Assembly: GCA_031270985.1 (NCBI GenBank)
Contig: JAISWR010000050.1
Location: forward strand, 1-41,547
DNA from: Bacteroidales bacterium
GTDB taxonomy: Bacteria; Bacteroidota; Bacteroidia; Bacteroidales; UBA4181
Direction: 5' to 3'
Length of the DNA stretch: 41,547 nt
Positions within the stretch are counted from its first letter, which is position 1. Each line of letters begins with the position of its first letter. Of the stretch, positions 29,709 through 39,417 are shown one piece after another. The position numbers and the translations under genes were made by a program. The notes beneath the pieces are model-generated. The model saw only the letters and a program-made list of their open reading frames with translations, did not search any database and had not been told where the DNA came from.

Positions 29709-31118
29709 ATGAAGAAAACGATTTGCCTTTTAGGCATCATAAGTTGCTGTATCGGAGTATATCCGCAGGAACAAGAACGAGTGGAAATTCTGACCGCATC
29801 CGAAGAGAAGACGCTCAATATTTCCGTCGATCGGGAATATAAAACGACAATAGTGTTGGAAGCGGAATTGTCGCGGCTTACCTTGACGGACGCCATAGCC
29901 GAAGGATTGAAAAATAATTTCTCTATCCTGTTGGCGCGCAACAATGAACAAATCAGCAACAATAACGTCACTCCGGGTAATGCCGGAATGTTGCCTTCTG
30001 TGACGCTGAACGGAACAGCGACCAAAGGAATTGCCGATTCCAACATGGAATTTGCTACAGGCGGTTCACAGGATAGAACAGGCGCCAAATCTACCAACCT
30101 GAACGGAAATGTGGCGCTGGACTGGACTATTTTCGACGGATTGACCATGTTTGCCAACTATGATCGATTAAAAGCCCTGCAAGTCGTAGGAAGGGAGAAC
30201 TTTCGCTCTGTATTGCAGGAGACCGTCGCTGCCATCATGACCGTATATTTCGATATTGTAAGCCGCCAGCAGGAACTGGATGCCATGAAACACATTCTGG
30301 AGATATCGCGCAGACGGTTACGCAGCGCCAACGACCTGTTTCAGGCAGGCAAAGTGTCCAAGGTGGATTTGCTGTCCGCGCAGGTGGACTACAACGCAGA
30401 TACCGCATCGTACATACAGCAAACCGAAGGGTTGAGGGATGCCAAAATCAGGATCAACCAACTGCTGGCACGGGATATTGACGGTGATTTCCGCGTGGCG
30501 GACACCATCGTCATCGACCAGACGCTGATATACGGGACGATACTCGACAAAGCCCTGTCGGAAAATCCGGATGTCATCATCTCCCGGATGGAAGCAAGTG
30601 CAGCCGGATTCACGCTGAAAGCAGCACAAGGCGCCCGTTATCCGGTGGTGAGGATCACCTCGTCATACGTCATGGCACAGCAAAATTCCGAGTCGGGACA
30701 AATATCCCAAAATAAATCCAATACGTTCAACTACGGAGCCACCGCAAGTATCCCTCTGTTTCGCGGGTTCAATATTAACCGCGAGATCAAAAACGCCAAA
30801 CTGGAAAAAGAATCTGCCGAACTGCGCTACGAGGAGATGCGAAAAGCCATTGAAACACAGGTGGCCAGAGCATACAGCGCATACGAAGTAAATCGCAAAC
30901 TTGCGCTGTTTGAAACCGCTAATTTGGGACTTGCCGCCGACAATCTGGACGTATCTATGGAACGCTACCGCTTTGGCGCCATCTCGGCAATAGAATTGCG
31001 CGACGTGCAACGCAGCTACATCTCGGCAACCAACCGCACGATTGTGGCAGTATATAACGCCAAAGTAGCCGAAACCGCATTGAAACTCCTCACCGGCGAG
31101 GTAATGGCATTTGATTGA
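29709..31118 (+). CDS. TolC-family outer membrane efflux channel
   Basis: The 469-residue protein forms the exit duct of the RND system. It has a signal peptide (MKKTICLLGIISCCIGVYPQ), then two OEP repeats with long amphipathic helices (LTLTDAIAEGLKNNFSILLA; SRRRLRSANDLFQAGKVSKV; MERYRFGAISAIELRDVQRS). It starts four bases after the pump stop, so translation is closely linked. A polar stretch of about 40 residues lies between the signal and the first repeat. It ends 46 bases from the convergent TonB receptor gene. Confidence 0.94.
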   Translation: MKKTICLLGIISCCIGVYPQEQERVEILTASEEKTLNISVDREYKTTIVLEAELSRLTLTDAIAEGLKNNFSILLARNNEQISNNNVTPGNAGMLPSVTLNGTATKGIADSNMEFATGGSQDRTGAKSTNLNGNVALDWTIFDGLTMFANYDRLKALQVVGRENFRSVLQETVAAIMTVYFDIVSRQQELDAMKHILEISRRRLRSANDLFQAGKVSKVDLLSAQVDYNADTASYIQQTEGLRDAKIRINQLLARDIDGDFRVADTIVIDQTLIYGTILDKALSENPDVIISRMEASAAGFTLKAAQGARYPVVRITSSYVMAQQNSESGQISQNKSNTFNYGATASIPLFRGFNINREIKNAKLEKESAELRYEEMRKAIETQVARAYSAYEVNRKLALFETANLGLAADNLDVSMERYRFGAISAIELRDVQRSYISATNRTIVAVYNAKVAETALKLLTGEVMAFD

Positions 31119-31163
31119 CTTCGCAATCGGCGCGGCGCGCCGCCCACGTCTTCGCCATGATAT

Positions 31164-33230
31164 TCAAAACACTGCCCGCATTCCTATTTTCATCTGTCTT
31201 CCGAAATCAGGATAAAGTGGAGAAACAGTGGCGTAGCGCCAATCGAAAATGTTCATCATCGAAGCGAATATTTGCAGGGGTGTACGCGGGATGGAACAGG
31301 TGAGGTTGGCATCGAAGTTGAAATAGTTGCCGGTATTCACTTCCTCCCTCAAGAAACGGTCGGTACGGTATTGTGATACATATTTGCCCATCAGGTTGGC
31401 TTCCCATGTACTTTTGGAGAACGAAACGGTGGCGTTGGCAATGAACGGCGGCTGTTTTGTGTAATGTTTCCGCGAGGAAGGGTCTTTGCGCCTGACGTAT
31501 TTGTAGGATACGTTGCCCGACGCGGAGAGGCAGCCCATCTGTTTGAGGCTGTGGAAAGACACTTCTATGCCGTAAGTTGCCAAATTGATGTTTCTCATGT
31601 AGTACCGCAACACGTTACGGTCGTCGTAATACGGTGTTTTGGTAAATTCCGAAGTATTTTTCTGGTTCATGAGAAAAAGTGTCCAAATGATGTGTCCCCT
31701 CTCTTCTATATGGTGTTTCCATCCGAGTTCCGCACCGGTGCGTATTTCCCGTTGTAATCCGCCCACAAGCGGTTTTCCCGTCGTTTCGTCCATCAAAGGT
31801 GCGCCGTTGTTTCCGGTGAGAAGTTGCAAGGCAGTCTTGTCCACCGGCAGCATACCGCTGTTGATGACAATGTTCAGCGTGCGTCTGCCGCGCTGGTGAG
31901 ATACGCCGGCGCTCATGCCGAACAGCGCGGGTTGCCATTCGTCGGACACCGCCTGCGCCGCATCGCCGAAGCCCTGCCCGGGAACGTAATATTCGTAATA
32001 TTCACGGATGAACTTTACGCCCGCATGAATATCTGTTTGCCCGAAAGTATGCTGGTCAAGCAGGGTTGCCGACAGGATTTTCTTTTTCGACATGCCGTGC
32101 GCATAGTTTGCCGACGAAGCGAACATGACGCCTGCCCGCAGCACGTTGTTTCTCACCGGCGAAAAAGCCTGAAACACCGCTGCCGTGAAAATCGAATCGG
32201 GTTCGTCCAGCATGTGGTTTCGTTTGATGGAATCGGCTATCTGCACCACCGATCCGGAAGAGGTAAAATAATAACGATCCGGGTATAAATCCATGCGGTT
32301 GAGAATATGGCTGAGTTGCAATTCGGTAGAAGCTTTTGCCGATTCGTTGATTTTCAGCCGCGCAGTTGCCACGTTGTAGCGCATCGGGTCGTATTCCCAC
32401 AAATCCGCCAACTGGCTTTGAGGCGCCGCCAGACTGTCGAATACTGCCTGCGTCACGTAGCGTGTGCCGTAAGTGTAAAAGTTTTCGAGCGCAAACTCTA
32501 TCCTGTCCTTATATTTATATTCCGCTTTTCCGTAGATGTTCCAAAGATTTTCTTTGCTGTGGCGTCCCTTTGGACCGTCGGTGCTGCTGTTGAACAAAGA
32601 CAGGGCGTAATGCAGGCGTCCCGTTTTGTCGTTTCCTGTCTTTCCGCCGTGCAGCACGCCGAAGCGCAGGCTGTTGAACGTACCGTATTCTACTTCCGCC
32701 TGCGTGATAAAGTCGTCGAAAGTCTTGGTTTTGATGTTCACCACGCCGTTCAGACCGCTGAAACCCAGCAGCAGTGAGTTGCCCGAACGTACCACTTCCA
32801 CCGATTCAATCATTGCAGCGGGCAACAATGAAGGCGCTTCCACCCATTCCGCCATAGGTCCTGCGCCGTTGGTGGAGAGCGAAACGCCATTGACCGCATA
32901 ATCCGCCGCCATGTTCTGTCCCCGCAGCAAATAATAGTGTTTTTTGCGGCGTCCTTGTGTGGAAGGCATTCCGTTGACCGAATACTTCAAGGCGTCGAAC
33001 AGGTTCACCGCTCCCGTTTTTCGATGTTCTTCGGATGTGATGTAAGTAATGGACGTTTCCCACGCCAACGGTTCCACTGTGAGATTGAGCAGGGGCGACG
33101 TTCGTTTTCTGCCGTATATTGACACCTCCTCAATGGAACGAACGGTGTCGGGCGGCAGTGTTTCCGTTTGTCCGGAAAGTTGCCCCGCCAGAGCGACCGA
33201 AAGGCAGGAAAAGATGAGACGGCGGATCAT
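31164..33230 (-). CDS. TonB-dependent outer membrane receptor
   Basis: The 688-residue receptor has a signal peptide (MIRRLIFSCLSVALAGQLSG), a TonB-box-like stretch (SIEEVSIYGRK) and a plug domain (HYYLLRGQNMAADYAVNGVS, MIESVEVVRSGNSLLLGFSG, VVNIKTK). A beta-barrel follows and ends MKIGMRAVF, with the terminal Phe needed for barrel assembly. There is no carboxypeptidase-like SusC extension, so a small-ligand receptor (siderophore, heme, cobalamin or metal chelate) is likelier than a glycan one. The ATG at 33230 leaves 11 bases after the binding-protein stop; the ATG at 33260 would overlap it. It is the last gene of the lipoprotein/binding-protein operon. Confidence 0.92.
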   Translation of the reverse strand: MIRRLIFSCLSVALAGQLSGQTETLPPDTVRSIEEVSIYGRKRTSPLLNLTVEPLAWETSITYITSEEHRKTGAVNLFDALKYSVNGMPSTQGRRKKHYYLLRGQNMAADYAVNGVSLSTNGAGPMAEWVEAPSLLPAAMIESVEVVRSGNSLLLGFSGLNGVVNIKTKTFDDFITQAEVEYGTFNSLRFGVLHGGKTGNDKTGRLHYALSLFNSSTDGPKGRHSKENLWNIYGKAEYKYKDRIEFALENFYTYGTRYVTQAVFDSLAAPQSQLADLWEYDPMRYNVATARLKINESAKASTELQLSHILNRMDLYPDRYYFTSSGSVVQIADSIKRNHMLDEPDSIFTAAVFQAFSPVRNNVLRAGVMFASSANYAHGMSKKKILSATLLDQHTFGQTDIHAGVKFIREYYEYYVPGQGFGDAAQAVSDEWQPALFGMSAGVSHQRGRRTLNIVINSGMLPVDKTALQLLTGNNGAPLMDETTGKPLVGGLQREIRTGAELGWKHHIEERGHIIWTLFLMNQKNTSEFTKTPYYDDRNVLRYYMRNINLATYGIEVSFHSLKQMGCLSASGNVSYKYVRRKDPSSRKHYTKQPPFIANATVSFSKSTWEANLMGKYVSQYRTDRFLREEVNTGNYFNFDANLTCSIPRTPLQIFASMMNIFDWRYATVSPLYPDFGRQMKIGMRAVF

Positions 33231-33241
33231 GCGCTTGGCAA

Positions 33242-34300
33242 TCAGTGGGATAAAAGCCATTCCACGTCTTCGTCAGTGACGGCGACATGATAGAACAGGC
33301 GAAAATAGTCTTTCAACGCCGCCCGCAGGTCGAAATCCAAAGCAGGGTAAAGCGTTTTCGCCAGCCAAAGCGCCCCCGCGATGCAGTTGGACGACGGCGG
33401 GCGGTCGAACCATCCGAACGGGAGGGACGGTATCTGGTACACCCTGCCTGTCTTCACCGCCTTCACCTTAGCCCATGCAAGGTTGGTGGTGATGTGTTCG
33501 CGCGTGCTTTTCCGTCCTTCGCCGCCCGGCAGCCCCATTCCTGCCGGAAAACCTGTCCACACGAGCACCACCTCCGGATTCCATTCCAGCAGTTGTTCCA
33601 TCGACACTTCCGACATGCCGTGCATGCCTCCTGTCTTTGCCTGTGCCACGTTGCGTATATGCAGGTACTCCATCACCTGACTGTGGATAGAAGCGGCAGG
33701 TTCCGTATTCAAACCCAGCGGCCCCTCCGCATAATACGCCGCAGGACGTTGCGACTCGGGAATAGCGGCGAGGCGGACGGCAAGCGGCGTCAGGCAAGCA
33801 TCTATCCATGCAACGATACGGTTGGCAGTGGCAACGCGATTCAGCGCATCGCCGAGAAAGACGTAAATGCTCCGGCTGTACGCTATGCCGAACTCAATCA
33901 CCAGCACGGGGATGTTCAATTTTTTCTGCATCGCATCGGCATCGGCTTTGGTGGCATCGCCGAAATGCGCCATCAGGATAACGTCCGGACGCAACTTCAA
34001 TATTTCTTCCGTTTCGGTCTCCACCAGCGGTTTGCCGGTATAATATTCCTTTGAGATGAATTTCTTGCCTTCTTCGCCGACGCGGAAAGTGGCGTTGCAC
34101 AGTATGTTTTCATCCAACGCAAAGACAATCAATGAAGTAAAACGGTCTGTAAACACCTTGTTGATAACGTCGGGAATCTCTACCCTGCGCCCTGCCATGT
34201 CCGTCACCGTACGTCCATGTGCGGTCATTACAAGAAAGAGAAGCAGGATGATAGTCACAGAAAGAGATTTTGATTTTTGACTTGAATATATCGTTTTCAC
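33242..34300 (-). CDS. Periplasmic binding protein of an iron-complex/cobalamin-type ABC importer
   Basis: The 352-residue product has a signal peptide (LSVTIILLLFLVMTAHG, no lipobox) and a BtuF/FecB-like fold. It shows VTDMAGRRVEIPDVINKVF, then EEILKLRPDVILMAHF, IPVLVIEFG, and near the end SMEQLLEWNPEVVLVWTGF and PFGWFDRPPSSNCIAGALW. Such proteins bind siderophores, heme, cobalamin or nickel complexes; the ligand is not evident. The apparent start is GTG (34300-34298). It lies between the lipoproteins and the TonB receptor. The only importer ATPase in the window is about 8 kb away, and no FecCD-like permease is seen. Confidence 0.88.
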   Translation of the reverse strand: MKTIYSSQKSKSLSVTIILLLFLVMTAHGRTVTDMAGRRVEIPDVINKVFTDRFTSLIVFALDENILCNATFRVGEEGKKFISKEYYTGKPLVETETEEILKLRPDVILMAHFGDATKADADAMQKKLNIPVLVIEFGIAYSRSIYVFLGDALNRVATANRIVAWIDACLTPLAVRLAAIPESQRPAAYYAEGPLGLNTEPAASIHSQVMEYLHIRNVAQAKTGGMHGMSEVSMEQLLEWNPEVVLVWTGFPAGMGLPGGEGRKSTREHITTNLAWAKVKAVKTGRVYQIPSLPFGWFDRPPSSNCIAGALWLAKTLYPALDFDLRAALKDYFRLFYHVAVTDEDVEWLLSH

Positions 34301-34369
34301 TTTATTATTGTTTATTGTTAAACGTTACACTATCTACTGTCTGATGCTTATTGTTTGCTATTTGTTGTT
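34301..34369. repeat. AT-rich degenerate short-period leader
   Basis: Between the lipoprotein stop and the binding-protein start the minus strand is built of loosely repeated AACAATA and CAGTAG-like words (for example TTTAACAATAAACAATAATA). It begins at the stop codon itself. Its role is unknown; it may arise from slippage. Confidence 0.35.
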
Positions 34370-35203
34370 CTACTGTTCACTGCTCCACACCCAGATGTCG
34401 TGTATTCTCACTGCGCGGTTGATGCCGTCGTTCACCGGGTTTTCCTTTCCGGTGAGGGCGGGGACGAATTTTAACTGCACGTTTTTTTCATGGATGTTCA
34501 CGGCGAACACTTCGCCCTCGTCGGGGTCGGACGGCAGGTAATCTCCTACCCGCACGAAGGACTTTGCTCCGTCGCTCTTTTTCCACAGGGTGACGCCTTT
34601 CACGTCGCTTTTCTGTCCGCCGATGGACACCGAAAAGCGCAGGACGGATACCGAAGGAAGCTCCGACAGCAGCAGGAGTGCGTCCGAATCATGCTGTCCG
34701 CACTCGTAGAAGATGAACTGCTGCAGGGCGACGTAGCCCGTGCTGACGCTGTCCGGCGACGTTCCCGCCCTGTTGCCGCACGCCGGATTGACGGCGAAAT
34801 CCTGCAAGATGTATGCCACCGTGAAGCCGCCATAGGTCTTTTTTACGGGTTTTTCCGTGCGATACATGATCACGGAAGTGGTCATACGGTCTTCCTCGCA
34901 GTCGTCTGTCGGCATTAGGTTCACGTAGCCGTCGCGTTTCCACGAACGAAAATCCTCGTGGAACGCCAGCGATCCATCGGTAGGATAACTGCCGGCATCC
35001 GTTTTGTCCACCGTTTCGTCCGGCATTTCTTCGCCGGCAAAACGGTAGTTAGATTCCTTTTCGCACGAGCACAGGACAGCGCCCAGCAAGAATCCCAAAG
35101 CGAAGGCTTCTCTTAAAGCCCTCCTCGCCCCTCCGAAAGAGGGGAAATTGAGACCCGACAGGTCAGTTGCGGACGGATGATTCCTCACATTTTTCATTTT
35201 CAT
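34370..35203 (-). CDS. Lipoprotein with one copy of an unrecognised beta-rich domain
   Basis: The 277-residue product is exported as a lipoprotein (ALGFLLGAVLCSCEKE). Residues from about 75 onward form one domain that is similar to the two domains of the protein at 35665-36972. Shared points are EDFRSWKRDGYV near its start, STGYVALQQ, LPSVSVLRFSVSI, VTLWKKSDGAKSFVRVG, VNIHEKNVQLKFVP and the end IHDIWVWSS. The signal peptide is preceded by about 28 odd residues (NHPSATDLSGLNFPSFGG and on) encoded by a palindromic interspersed repeat. It stands between a broken paralogue and a periplasmic binding protein, so it may be a surface ligand-capture protein. That is inference. Confidence 0.75.
   Translation of the reverse strand: MKMKNVRNHPSATDLSGLNFPSFGGARRALREAFALGFLLGAVLCSCEKESNYRFAGEEMPDETVDKTDAGSYPTDGSLAFHEDFRSWKRDGYVNLMPTDDCEEDRMTTSVIMYRTEKPVKKTYGGFTVAYILQDFAVNPACGNRAGTSPDSVSTGYVALQQFIFYECGQHDSDALLLLSELPSVSVLRFSVSIGGQKSDVKGVTLWKKSDGAKSFVRVGDYLPSDPDEGEVFAVNIHEKNVQLKFVPALTGKENPVNDGINRAVRIHDIWVWSSEQ
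35104..35180. repeat. Palindromic interspersed repeat inside the lipoprotein 5' end
   Basis: Two small hairpins, CCCCTC-CGAAA-GAGGGG (35128-35144) and GACC-CGACA-GGTC (35152-35164), lie in a stretch that encodes the extra N-terminal residues of the lipoprotein. The wording resembles REP-like elements that are scattered in Bacteroidetes genomes, often in intergenic DNA. Confidence 0.5.
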
Positions 35204-35224
35204 TTTTCAACTTTCAATTCCTCT

Positions 35225-35633
35225 TCACCTGCTCCATACTCTGATGCCGTGTACTTTGGTTTTGCGGTTGACGCCGAGGTACTTGCCCTTGTAAAGCTAG
35301 CCACTGTCCTTGCGCGATCCTTCGCCCGGACATATCCTGAACGATACGTTTTGGGCGTTTACCTTCACGCGGAGATACTTTCCGATACCGGTAAACCTGT
35401 CCAGCGCGGATAGATTTTTGTGCCCTTGCCCGTCTTGGAGGGCTGGAATACACCCAGCGGCTCCCATCCTTCGCCGTCGGCGGTGGAGCAGTAAAGCCCC
35501 AAGCCCCGTCCTTCGATACTCAGCGCGCTCAGCGAAAAACGCATCACCTGTACATAGGTGAACGCGCCTGCTTCCAGCGCGGATCGCATCCACCTCGTGC
35601 ACCAACTATTGCATCAGATAATAAAAACTTCAT
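35225..35633 (-). pseudogene. Broken paralogue of the neighbouring lipoproteins
   Basis: Fragments in two frames resemble the second domain of the protein at 35665-36972. The first reads YVQVMRFSLSALS, LGLYCSTADGEGWEPLGVFQ. After a frameshift near 35405-35415 the second reads GIGKYLRVKVNAQNVSFRI, against GIGKYFRYFINQKNVSFRF in the intact copy. An in-frame TAG follows KDSG, and the tail VHGIRVWSR then ends at TGA (35227-35225). The N-terminal half and the lipoprotein signal are missing, although an ATG at 35633 (MKFLLSD) may be the old start. At least three lesions make a functional protein unlikely. Confidence 0.8.
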
Positions 35634-35664
35634 GATAAAAGAATTTAAAAATTAGATAAGAAAA

Positions 35665-36972
35665 TCACGGTTTTCCGTCACTCCATATTCTCACGCCGTA
35701 TATCTTGGGTGTTCCGGTGAATCCGGGTTTAGGCATGAATCGGAAAGATACGTTCTTTTGGTTGATGAAATAGCGGAAATACTTGCCTATTCCGGCATAG
35801 GCGGTGATGATTACTTCGTCGTACAGCAGGTATTCTCCGCCGTTCACGGACTTGTAGAGTTGGTACTGTCCCGACATTCCGGTTGCGGCGATCCAAAACT
35901 CGACAAGCGAAACGGAAGGCACTGCGGATATGGTGAGCGACGATCGTTTGCCATCCGCCAGTTGTCCGTCAGGCGGCAATTGGACGTATCCCGTTGTCAG
36001 TCCGTACACCAGCGAGGTATCGCCGTGGTGGTTGTATCCCGCCGGATAGTTGGCGCCATTCCGTATTTCGTAAGTGACGGGTACGCCGGCATAATACGTG
36101 ACGGTTCGCGTATAGTCGGCGGGTTGCACGGTGAGGTTCGTACCCGCTTTGTTGATTGTCTCGGGATAAGGCGTTGCATAGCCGGTCATTTCCCATGTTT
36201 TGAAATAATCCTCTGCGTAGAGCGCCGATCCGTCGGGGACGCCTTCATTATATATTTTCAGGTCGTGTATGCACAGATATCCCTTTTCGTTATCGGCTGG
36301 GGCAAACTTGAACGTGACGTTAGCGGCGTCAATGTTGAGCGAATAGAACGAACCGTCGGGTTCCGGCTTGAATGTTGCTACAGGTGCGTAGTCGCCGCCC
36401 GCTGTCGCGCTGTATAGGGTAAGCCCGTCGCCGTCCTGTTCCATGCCGGTGAGCGTGAATTGCAGCACAGACACGCGGGGTATCGGTTTTCCGCCGCCGC
36501 CTGTTAGCGTCAGGTATGGGACAGCTGTCCCGCTCCGTGCCTGTTTGTTGGAGAAAATGAGATAGCCCTTGGAGACGTTCTTGTCGTCTGCCGTGATGCC
36601 GGAGTTGAGGGGACAGGTCGTATTGACGGCTACGTCATGGTAGCCGAACAGGATGGTGTCATTGTGCACGCCGTTGTAATAGGTTTCGCTCACCTCAAAC
36701 TCTTCGGTGGCACACAACATGCCTTCAGCGCCGTGGTGCGTGGATTCCGACGTTTCGTACCCGATTGCCGCCGTGGATTTGCCGAACCCGCTACCTTGCA
36801 GGTACTGGAAATTCCTGTCCACCACCGGCGATGCACCCGCCGGAACAGGGGCGTCAATCACCAGCGGTTCCTCCAATGGGCCTTCCGGTTCGTTCTTGTC
36901 ACACGCGCCCAACAACAAGACAACAGCACATCCTGCCGCCATCCGTCCATAAACATACATTTTGCTTTTCAT
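35665..36972 (-). CDS. Lipoprotein with two copies of an unrecognised beta-rich domain
   Basis: The 435-residue product has a clear lipoprotein signal (GCAVVLLLGACDKNE). It is followed by two related domains of about 190 residues, 45-230 and 231-435. Shared marks are an aromatic start (AEDYFKTWEMTGY in copy two), a GYLIF/GYVQL strand, PRVSVLQFTLTG/VPSVSLVEFWIAA, LTLYSATAGGDYAP/YQLYKSVNGGEYLL, LNIDAANVTFKFAP/FINQKNVSFRFMP and IHDLKIYN/IYGVRIWSD. I cannot name the family; the PSVS...G...LY.S..GG pattern recalls beta-sandwich modules in Bacteroidetes pectinolytic and surface proteins. It heads the operon and follows palindromic sites. A role in binding the ligand of the TonB receptor is inferred. 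Confidence 0.78.
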   Translation of the reverse strand: MKSKMYVYGRMAAGCAVVLLLGACDKNEPEGPLEEPLVIDAPVPAGASPVVDRNFQYLQGSGFGKSTAAIGYETSESTHHGAEGMLCATEEFEVSETYYNGVHNDTILFGYHDVAVNTTCPLNSGITADDKNVSKGYLIFSNKQARSGTAVPYLTLTGGGGKPIPRVSVLQFTLTGMEQDGDGLTLYSATAGGDYAPVATFKPEPDGSFYSLNIDAANVTFKFAPADNEKGYLCIHDLKIYNEGVPDGSALYAEDYFKTWEMTGYATPYPETINKAGTNLTVQPADYTRTVTYYAGVPVTYEIRNGANYPAGYNHHGDTSLVYGLTTGYVQLPPDGQLADGKRSSLTISAVPSVSLVEFWIAATGMSGQYQLYKSVNGGEYLLYDEVIITAYAGIGKYFRYFINQKNVSFRFMPKPGFTGTPKIYGVRIWSDGKP

Positions 36973-37119
36973 CGTTTTTTATTTTTGATATTGTTTTTAT
37001 TTGATATTATATAAAAAGATAACGGTTGTGCCGAAAATCCCTTTATATGTCGAATAAAATATGCAAAAATTGTGCCGCTTTTATAAGCGAGTGTATATCA
37101 GTATATTATGTAAAACGAG

Positions 37120-37176
37120 TGTAGGGAAAATCCTACATTTTTGTAGGAAATGAAAAAGAAGTTACATTTTTGTAGG
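37120..37176. promoter_or_regulatory. Cluster of CCTACA-N4-TGTAGG inverted repeats (possible operators)
   Basis: A perfect inverted repeat CCTACATTTTTGTAGG lies at 37132-37147. A second copy with one weaker arm, GTTACATTTTTGTAGG, lies at 37161-37176. A further TGTAGG at 37120-37125 faces the first CCTACA across six bases. The cluster is 150-200 bases upstream of the lipoprotein operon and downstream of rnr. This arrangement suits a dimeric repressor or activator, but no regulator gene is adjacent. Confidence 0.45.
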
Positions 37177-37208
37177 ATTTTGACGGAGAAAGGAGAAAGT
37201 GTGTTCGG

Positions 37209-37248
37209 CGTCATTGCGACGGCGAGGCACGAGGCGGGAAGCAATCCT
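37209..37248. repeat. REP-like element (GTCATTGCGA...GAAGCAATCC)
   Basis: The stretch begins CGTCATTGCGACGGCGAGG and ends GGGAAGCAATCCTG, with ATTGC/GCAAT arms. This is the wording of a GTCATTGCGAGG...GAAGCAATC palindromic repeat family found in many bacteria. It lies just after the rnr stop and could help end that transcript. Confidence 0.55.
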
Positions 37249-37254
37249 GTTTTC

Positions 37255-39417
37255 TTATTCTTTTTCCGGCAGTCTGAAATCCAATTGTTTTTTTAGCAGG
37301 TTGGCGCGCCACACCAGAATACGGATGGGTTCGCCCAGTTGGAAAGTACGTCCGTAATGGCGACCTTTGATGCAATAATTATCTTCATCAAAGATGTAAA
37401 AATCATCGTTCAGTTCGCGGATGTGGATCATGCCTTCGCATTTGTTGTCGTTCAGTTCCACATAGATACCCCATTCCGTAACGCCGGATATGGTGCCGTC
37501 GAAACATTGTCCCACCTTGTCGCTCATAAATTCCACCTGCTTGTACTTGATGGATGTCCGTTCGGCATCTACGGCGCGTTTTTCCATGCCGGAGGACTGT
37601 CGGCAAAGCGTTTCCAGATGCTCTTTGTTTGGCTTGTTACCTTTGCCGTCCAGATAGTATTGCAGCAGGCGATGCGTCATCATGTCCGGGTAGCGGCGTA
37701 TGGGCGAGGTGAAATGCGTGTAGTATTTGAATCCCAGTCCGTAATGCCCGATGTTGTCGGTGGAGTAATCCGCCTTTGCCATAGAGCGTAGCGCAAGGGT
37801 TCCGAACATGGTTTCCATTTTTGTTCCTTTTGCTTTTTCCAGCAGTTTGTTGAGCGATGTGGCGATGGTGTGTTCCGAGGTGATTTTGAGGGAATAGCCG
37901 AAACGGGTGACAAATCCCGCGAAGTTTCCCAGTTTTTCCATATTGGGTTTGTCATGTACGCGGTACACGCCTACTTTTTCTTTTCCGGCGCGGACGGGGC
38001 TTTCTGCGCGAATGACACCTGAGATAAACTCGGCTACGCGACAGTTTGCCAACAGCATGAACTCTTCTATCAGTTGGTGTGAGGTGGTGTTTTCCACATA
38101 GTACACGCCCAGTGGTTTTCCGTCTTTGTCGAGTTCGAATTTTGGTTCAGGGCGGTCAAAGAAGATGGAGCCGTTTTTGAAACGGTTGTTGCGGAGGATT
38201 TGCGCCAATCTGTGCAGGGCAAGTATTTGGTTGCTCATTTTGCCTTCGCCGGTGTCGATGATGGTCTGTGCTTCTTCGTAGGAAAGGCGATTGGTAGAAC
38301 GGATGATTGTTCTGCCGAACCATTGTTTCAGCACATTGGCGTTGCCGTCTGTTTCAAACACGGCGGAGAAGCACAGTTTATCTTCGTTGGGACGCAGGGA
38401 ACACAGGTTGTTGGACAGTTTTTCGGGGAGCATGGGCACCACGCGATCCACCAGATAAACAGACGTGGCGCGATTGACGGCTTCTTTGTCGAGAATCGAA
38501 TCCTCCGGTATGTAGTGTGTCACGTCGGCGATATGTACGCCTACCTCCCAGTTGCCATTGTTCAATTTTTCGATGGACAGGGCATCGTCAAAATCTTTGG
38601 CATCTGCAGGGTCAACGGTGAATGTGGGGACGCCGCGGAAGTCGCGTCTTTTGCCGATTTCTTCCGCCGTTATTTTCGTTGAGATGGCAGCTGCGGCGGT
38701 TTCCACTTCCGGTTCAAAACGGTAGGGCAATTCATATTCGGCAAGAATGGCGTGCATTTCCGTTTCGTTCTCGCCCGGATTGCCGAGTACTTGCAGCACT
38801 TCGCCGATGGGGTTTTTGGCGCGGTGGGGCCAATCCGTTATTCGCGCCACCACTTTCTGTCCGTCTTTTGCACCCTGAATTTTGTCCTGAGGGATGAAAA
38901 GGTCGTAGGGCATCAAACGGCTGTCGGGGATCATGAAGGCAAATTCCCGCATAACGCCGATGGTACCCACAAAGGTGGAACGGGAACGTTTTATTATTTC
39001 CATCACCTGTCCTTCCAATCGGGCATTTTTGCGGCGGGCAAAGAGATGTACTTTCACTGTGTCGCCGTGTAGCGCTTCCCGCAAGTGTTTCTGTGACACA
39101 AAGACGTCTTCCTTAGTCTGCTCCGAAATGATGTAGGCGTATCCGTGGGCGGTCATGTCCACCCGTCCGCTGATGCAGCCGGTTTCGTAGTTAAGACGAT
39201 GATTGCCGTGGCCGGTTTCTTTTATTTTTTTTCTGCTTTTTTTCTGCGCGGTCATATCGGGTATCAAACGCTGCGTGGCGTCATCATTGACGTTCATGTG
39301 TTCCGTTACCTGCTTGCAATTCATATCGTTTCCCGAATTACGGTTGAATGTTGCCGGCGTTTTTGCCGATAATCCTTCATGGTTCAGTGTGCTTTTCCGT
39401 TTTTTGCTGCGTGACAT
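37255..39417 (-). CDS. rnr: Ribonuclease R
   Basis: The 720-residue 3'-5' exoribonuclease degrades structured RNA and helps in rRNA quality control. After a basic, low-complexity N-terminus (about 80 residues) come cold-shock domains (GRVDMTAHGYAYIISEQTKE; FVGTIGVMREFAFMIPD). The RNB catalytic core has four aspartates in TVDPADAKDFDDALS, and also GVHIADVTHYI, RHY-type HYGLGFKYYTHFTSPIRRYP and a C-terminal S1 domain (FDGTISGVTEWGIYVELNDN). Length is normal. It lies 28 bases after the antiporter stop on the same strand, so they may share a transcript. Confidence 0.96.
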   Translation of the reverse strand: MSRSKKRKSTLNHEGLSAKTPATFNRNSGNDMNCKQVTEHMNVNDDATQRLIPDMTAQKKSRKKIKETGHGNHRLNYETGCISGRVDMTAHGYAYIISEQTKEDVFVSQKHLREALHGDTVKVHLFARRKNARLEGQVMEIIKRSRSTFVGTIGVMREFAFMIPDSRLMPYDLFIPQDKIQGAKDGQKVVARITDWPHRAKNPIGEVLQVLGNPGENETEMHAILAEYELPYRFEPEVETAAAAISTKITAEEIGKRRDFRGVPTFTVDPADAKDFDDALSIEKLNNGNWEVGVHIADVTHYIPEDSILDKEAVNRATSVYLVDRVVPMLPEKLSNNLCSLRPNEDKLCFSAVFETDGNANVLKQWFGRTIIRSTNRLSYEEAQTIIDTGEGKMSNQILALHRLAQILRNNRFKNGSIFFDRPEPKFELDKDGKPLGVYYVENTTSHQLIEEFMLLANCRVAEFISGVIRAESPVRAGKEKVGVYRVHDKPNMEKLGNFAGFVTRFGYSLKITSEHTIATSLNKLLEKAKGTKMETMFGTLALRSMAKADYSTDNIGHYGLGFKYYTHFTSPIRRYPDMMTHRLLQYYLDGKGNKPNKEHLETLCRQSSGMEKRAVDAERTSIKYKQVEFMSDKVGQCFDGTISGVTEWGIYVELNDNKCEGMIHIRELNDDFYIFDEDNYCIKGRHYGRTFQLGEPIRILVWRANLLKKQLDFRLPEKE

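Follow-up and report, generated by a model that had tools for sequence, protein, structure and literature searches.

A candidate nitrogenase-linked TonB uptake operon with a putative new family of surface lipoproteins, possibly for a molybdenum complex, in a gut Bacteroidales bacterium

The window analysed here, a stretch of 41,547 nucleotides from a gut Bacteroidales bacterium that is probably a termite symbiont, contains a minus-strand operon that runs from position 36972 to 31164. Its first gene (35665..36972) encodes a 435-residue lipoprotein with the lipobox LLGAC and two copies of one domain, copy A at 36241..36828 and copy B at 35665..36240, all on the minus strand and both copies with approximate limits. 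A decayed copy follows at about 35620-35226 (minus strand), of which only the C-terminal half is present, with a frameshift and a TAG. Next are a single-domain lipoprotein of 277 residues (34370..35203, minus strand; lipobox VLCSC), whose family is conserved in nitrogenase-bearing Bacteroidales, a periplasmic binding protein (PBP; 33242..34300, minus strand; Peripla_BP_2, 2.3e-18) of a clade marked by YYAEG, HS and DRPP motifs, and a TonB-dependent receptor (31164..33260, minus strand; Plug, 3.9e-11), with the genes of the latter two overlapping by 19 nt. In the related locus L091 the two lipoproteins have directly consecutive orthologues, without the intervening copy, and three more lipoprotein-like genes lie 5' of the pair (L091:1243-4766), two of them resembling beta-propeller surface proteins by eye. 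An earlier note on this DNA had proposed two lipoprotein genes followed by a binding protein and a TonB receptor in one operon, which the lipoboxes and the Peripla_BP_2 and Plug matches confirm; its limits for the feature (33230-36972) omit most of the receptor, which extends to 31164, and the promoter region at 37062-37174.

The three intact domains match each other in pairwise BLASTP with E values of 3e-7, 2e-12 and 2e-12, so that their similarity is not due to chance, and the decayed copy is found both with the domain profile (E 1.7e-5) and with domain B by tblastn (2e-9), in agreement with the earlier count of three intact copies and one decayed copy of a single domain. The window lipoproteins match no Pfam or NCBIfam family at its cut-off, which upholds the view, formed by eye, that they belong to no family of the BtuG, HmuY or SusD type; HmuY, SusD and DUF4374 (the XusB family) in particular gave no Pfam match above cut-off for these proteins or for the aligned members. 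A PDB sequence search with the lipoprotein profile returned nothing meaningful, and a contig scan of genomes with the 435-residue protein as the sole query returned no relative. The best reading of these sequences is that they form a new family of surface lipoproteins, and the two lipoproteins probably reside on the cell surface.

An AlphaFold2 model built from 18 sequences (mean pLDDT 80.9) is a beta-sandwich, and the solved structure nearest to it by VIA-align is 8x8h (Z 12.2, 2.6 A, 136 aligned), the carbohydrate-binding domain of a putative pectate lyase, with the likewise carbohydrate-binding 8wc1 at Z 10.9; reelin, MAM, CBM4/29/36 and gingipain adhesin domains are the next neighbours. 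The pectate-lyase domains share the type of sandwich with the window lipoproteins but only about 10% identity, and they are attached to an enzyme, whereas the protein here is a lipoprotein in an uptake operon. Distant sequence relatives of the domain are parts of secreted pectinesterases. The resemblance to 8x8h, these pectinesterase relatives, and the position of the lipoprotein gene after SusC-SusD pairs in L019 and L098 would fit surface proteins with a carbohydrate-binding or adhesive role and no part in uptake beyond sharing the operon. We regard this as quite unlikely, given that function is not shown by a common fold, that the lipoproteins, PBP and receptor have operon and promoter in common, and that nitrogenase genes are present in the genomes that have the close family. 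The modelled fold is a common ligand-binding sandwich and therefore does not name the ligand; the lipoproteins may themselves bind the ligand of an uptake system, and the likeness of their model to carbohydrate-binding modules is a point against the uptake reading.

The PBP model is closest to 4pag (Z 29.9), followed by MolA (3psa, Z 23.9), Helicobacter pylori CeuE with nickel (Z 23.4) and YiuA (Z 23.1). The molybdate-binding MolA is thereby among the nearest solved relatives, with a sequence E value of 9e-18, although 4pag is closer and nickel and siderophore binders score similarly. The model identifies the PBP as a predicted metal-complex binding protein. The idea of a plain MolA orthologue did not hold up: the DRPP and HS motifs that mark the PBP clade are missing from MolA, and 4pag is nearer. 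The receptor gave nothing meaningful against the PDB by sequence, and its best NCBIfam match is TonB-siderophor at 70.6 bits, below the cut-off of 223.5. That match, and the similarity of the PBP model to the ferric-siderophore binders YiuA and CeuE (the latter at Z 19), are what one would expect if the ligand were an iron chelate, a xenosiderophore or other ferric complex, a reading to which we return below. In L050 a match to the Bacteroidetes sRNA FopS (Rfam, 77.5 bits) lies just 3' of the PBP gene (L050:9190-9256).

Genes for a MolB/MolC-like permease and ATPase are absent from the window operon. In G007, a genome of the same genus, a second FecCD-FecE pair, on a separate contig, is orthologous to pairs found within PBP operons; its FecCD is 65% identical to the permease of the G175 PBP operon and has one TACA-N4-TGTA-type palindrome 109 bp upstream. 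A second FecCD-FecE pair of this kind was not found in the host's own 85% assembly, where the only FecCD is of the genus-wide type. This single FecCD was rejected as a dedicated partner, since six further members of the genus have it at 75-79% identity and five of these lack NifD.

The region upstream of the operon start at 36972 contains two TACA-N4-TGTA palindromes 29 bp apart and the sequence CGGCAC-N5-TTGCA. The distal palindrome, TACAAAAATGTA (37163..37174, minus strand), and the proximal one, TACAAAAATGTA within CCTACAAAAATGTAGG (37134..37145, minus strand), are candidate activator sites 1 and 2, and CGGCACAATTTTTGCA (37062..37077, minus strand) is a sigma-54-type promoter with 11 of 12 consensus positions. 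Both palindromes lie 5' of the operon, and the window has no others of this type. The host's own nifH is preceded by two TACATTTTTGTA sites 29 bp apart and by TGGCACAGCATTTGAA, a layout matched by the operon promoter. The composite of paired sites and promoter occurs 12 times in 661 kb versus 0.1 expected in shuffled sequence, a figure to be read with the facts that the loci searched were chosen for their content and the pattern was defined after these promoters had been seen. It stands 5' of the lipoprotein operon in the window and in L090, L091 and L092, 5' of nifH or anfH in L034, L059 and L099, 5' of PBP/TonB operons in other bacterial families in L049 and L056, and 5' of an SBP_bac_6 gene in L052 and a ModE-like gene in L060 (both assigned by eye), with a further occurrence 0.65 kb before an ATPase gene in L099. 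The nine ORFs with a composite upstream, among 513, are all nifH or anfH or the starts of uptake-locus operons. Several nifH -12 elements deviate (TTGA, TTGT), and the NifA-like gene of G007 scores 485.1 bits, below the cut-off of 528.85. The likeness of the operon promoter to a nitrogenase promoter suggests that the operon may import the metal of nitrogenase, most likely molybdenum. The L049 and L056 operons (L049:6667-12831 and L056:4326-10558) have the order TonB, methyltransferase, PBP, SBP_bac_6, CobW/HypB-like GTPase and ABC ATPase, and their SBP_bac_6 protein is without an obvious signal peptide.

The host genome carries nifH-I1-I2-D-K (L034) and nifE (L035), with NifD (656.7 bits) and NifE (611 bits) both above cut-off; it encodes a Mo-nitrogenase. 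NifD is found in 26 of 393 genomes of the order and the PBP clade, called at E <= 1e-30, in five, all of which have NifD (p 9e-7; by genus 4/4, p 8e-5), statistics in which phylogeny is partly controlled and the assemblies are incomplete to varying degrees (85% completeness for the host, 88% for G007). Within the host's genus NifD and the locus are found together in the host (G000) and G007 only, some of the other genomes of the genus being incomplete. Within the order, the close lipoprotein family was found in G000, G075 and G161 only. Scanning GTDB genomes for the lipoprotein gave ten loci, in Bacteroidales, Tannerella sp. and Dysgonomonadaceae MAGs and in Barb4, two of them SusC/D-linked (L097, L098). 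All seven further lipoprotein-bearing genomes have nitrogenase-family genes, six above cut-off, with G400 having only NifE/N-like matches. From the MAG names we take the hosts of the lipoprotein-bearing genomes to be termites, and Barb4 is presumably a protist ectosymbiont of Cryptocercus. The order lipoprotein, PBP and TonB receptor recurs in other Bacteroidales genomes (L092, L094 and L099), and lipoprotein with PBP in L003 and L006, so this neighbourhood survey places homologues next to binding proteins and receptors, as the earlier note had anticipated. That note's broader proposal, a capture module for a small metal complex or cofactor, stands as regards uptake by lipoprotein, PBP and TonB receptor and is compatible with a metal complex, but nothing points to heme or cobalamin, with no riboswitch and no BtuG, HmuY or SusD match found.

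The neighbourhoods of these loci contain several other associations. Lipoprotein relatives follow SusC-SusD pairs in L019, L097 and L098; the pair in L097 (G075) lies near a nitrogenase-like HBDK cluster with an O-acetylhomoserine sulfhydrylase, which we guess to be a methylthio-alkane reductase, and that in L098 has an SsuABC-like transporter nearby. The lipoprotein gene has a TrmO/TsaA gene next to it in L094 and L099 and appears fused with one in L093; such a gene also adjoins the ModE-like gene in the nif cluster of G075 (L057:17632-18120). Three nif clusters encode similar outer-membrane porin-like proteins next to ModA (L058:16632-17999, L060:14778-16106 and L061:4700-5995).

A physical link to nitrogenase is seen in Barb4 (L099), where the stretch from an Fe-only nitrogenase cluster to nifV/nifA contains orthologous lipoprotein, PBP and TonB genes. 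On the minus strand are anfD-I2-I1-anfH, followed by plus-strand genes for FecE, TonB, PBP, two further proteins, TrmO, lipoprotein, PBP, TonB, a SUMT-like protein, TonB and PBP, and then by nifV (minus strand) and a nifA-like gene; AnfD, on a truncated fragment, scores 797 bits, NifV 417.7 and TrmO 103.7. The PBP of the window is 56% identical, and its receptor 65%, to their counterparts next to the Barb4 lipoprotein. Promoter layout, co-occurrence and linkage thus tie the locus to nitrogenase, and we hold it likely that the operon serves nitrogenase-linked uptake; the useful question is therefore which nitrogenase metal it carries.

ModB is the main reason to favour molybdenum. It scores above cut-off in 24 of the 25 NifD genomes that lack the lipoprotein-PBP locus versus one of the seven that have it (Fisher p 5e-5; 2e-4 with the host's genus counted once), a contrast weakened by incomplete assemblies and by kinship among genomes that remains in the statistics. 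Among the seven, ModB is absent from G000, G007 and G401-G404 and present in Barb4, which carries both the locus and ModB and in which the locus adjoins the Fe-only nitrogenase. The count leaves out G405 (SusC/D context, ModB present) and G400 (no NifD), and it includes G404 (L096) and G403 (L095) on the strength of the lipoprotein, in L095 with the receptor, the PBP gene beside it not being fully read. An iron chelate as the ligand of the same nitrogenase-regulated locus would suit the large iron requirement of nitrogenase and the Fe-only cluster of Barb4; siderophore and TonB genes are also raised during N2 fixation in A. vinelandii (PMC10669500), and XusAB of Bacteroides is a lipoprotein-fed siderophore uptake system (PMC13142918). 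It leaves unexplained why six of the seven NifD genomes with the locus lack ModB, and we consider it somewhat unlikely. On balance we lean towards molybdenum as the ligand.

Uptake of cobalamin, heme or another tetrapyrrole has to be weighed in view of the uroporphyrinogen-methyltransferase-like gene that adjoins related PBP/TonB pairs in G175, G191, G088 and Barb4, and of the PBP fold shared by BtuF and heme-binding proteins. A riboswitch was rejected, as positions 31000-37400 of the window contain no Rfam match of any kind and seven related loci no cobalamin riboswitch; the receptor reaches only 24.9 bits with the BtuB-type model (TIGR01779) against the 599.7 needed, and the nitrogenase-type promoter and the distribution also argue against a tetrapyrrole, which we judge very improbable. 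The methyltransferase-like genes score 160.7 and 178.4 bits, just below the cut-off of 185; they occur in PBP/TonB operons of nitrogen fixers, among them L099:13869-14612 and L050:12603-13346.

We find it somewhat more probable than not that the operon is regulated with nitrogenase, serves TonB-dependent uptake, most likely of a molybdenum complex, and encodes a new family of surface lipoproteins. The operon would be expressed together with nitrogenase, a NifA-like enhancer-binding activator of the nitrogenase type binding the two palindromes and turning on the sigma-54-type promoter. The lipoproteins may catch the metal complex, most likely molybdenum as oxyanion or chelate, and pass it to the TonB receptor for entry into the periplasm; from there the Peripla_BP_2 protein could deliver it to an ABC importer of the FecCD/FecE type whose genes lie outside the operon. 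Molybdenum is a requirement of the gut symbionts that fix nitrogen in wood-eating insects, and in termite-type lineages the TonB route appears to have taken the place of ModABC. More tentatively, and as a possibility that we rate below even chances, termite-gut Bacteroidales may have replaced ModABC with a nitrogenase-regulated TonB molybdenum route whose surface receptors are new CBM-fold lipoproteins for molybdenum complexes, perhaps drawing on molybdenum bound to plant catechols or to metallophores of other microbes. If a nitrogenase-tied outer-membrane metal route is real, it offers specific genes, a candidate nif activator site for Bacteroidales and a new testable lipoprotein family, and it may explain N2 fixation in several of these genomes without a recognizable ModABC.

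A literature search found no account of such a system in termite Tannerellaceae, most subscription journals lying outside its coverage. To our knowledge, the MolBC-A system has neither a TonB receptor nor lipoproteins. MolBC-A of Haemophilus influenzae (PMC4031551) resembles the window operon in its class of binding protein, MolA (3psa) being near the PBP, and differs in the missing DRPP and HS motifs and in that MolA is not the nearest relative. XusAB (PMC13142918) passes a metal chelate from a surface lipoprotein to a TonB receptor, as we propose here, although XusB is a DUF4374 beta-propeller, whereas the protein here is modelled as a beta-sandwich without a DUF4374 match, and there is no PepSY protein. 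ModABC beside nif in Bacteroidales (PMC4356463) supplies molybdenum for nitrogenase, the role proposed for the window locus, but at the inner membrane only, and ModB was not found in most locus-bearing genomes. Nitrogenase-tied TonB uptake is a known kind of system, because VnfA1 controls such operons in Azotobacter vinelandii: the regulon includes three TonB-receptor operons with ABC components together with modA2B2C2, under paired sites (PMC9542535). The class B regulon of VnfA1, as described there, is similar both in placing a sigma-54 activator of the nitrogenase family over TonB-receptor/ABC operons and in having two similarly spaced sites in most promoters; it differs in phylum and in its site, GT(T/A)C-N6-GTAC, and the passages on it mention no surface lipoproteins (PMC9542535). 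The present case is new in its phylum and site, in the family of its lipoproteins and in that ModB appears to have been lost.
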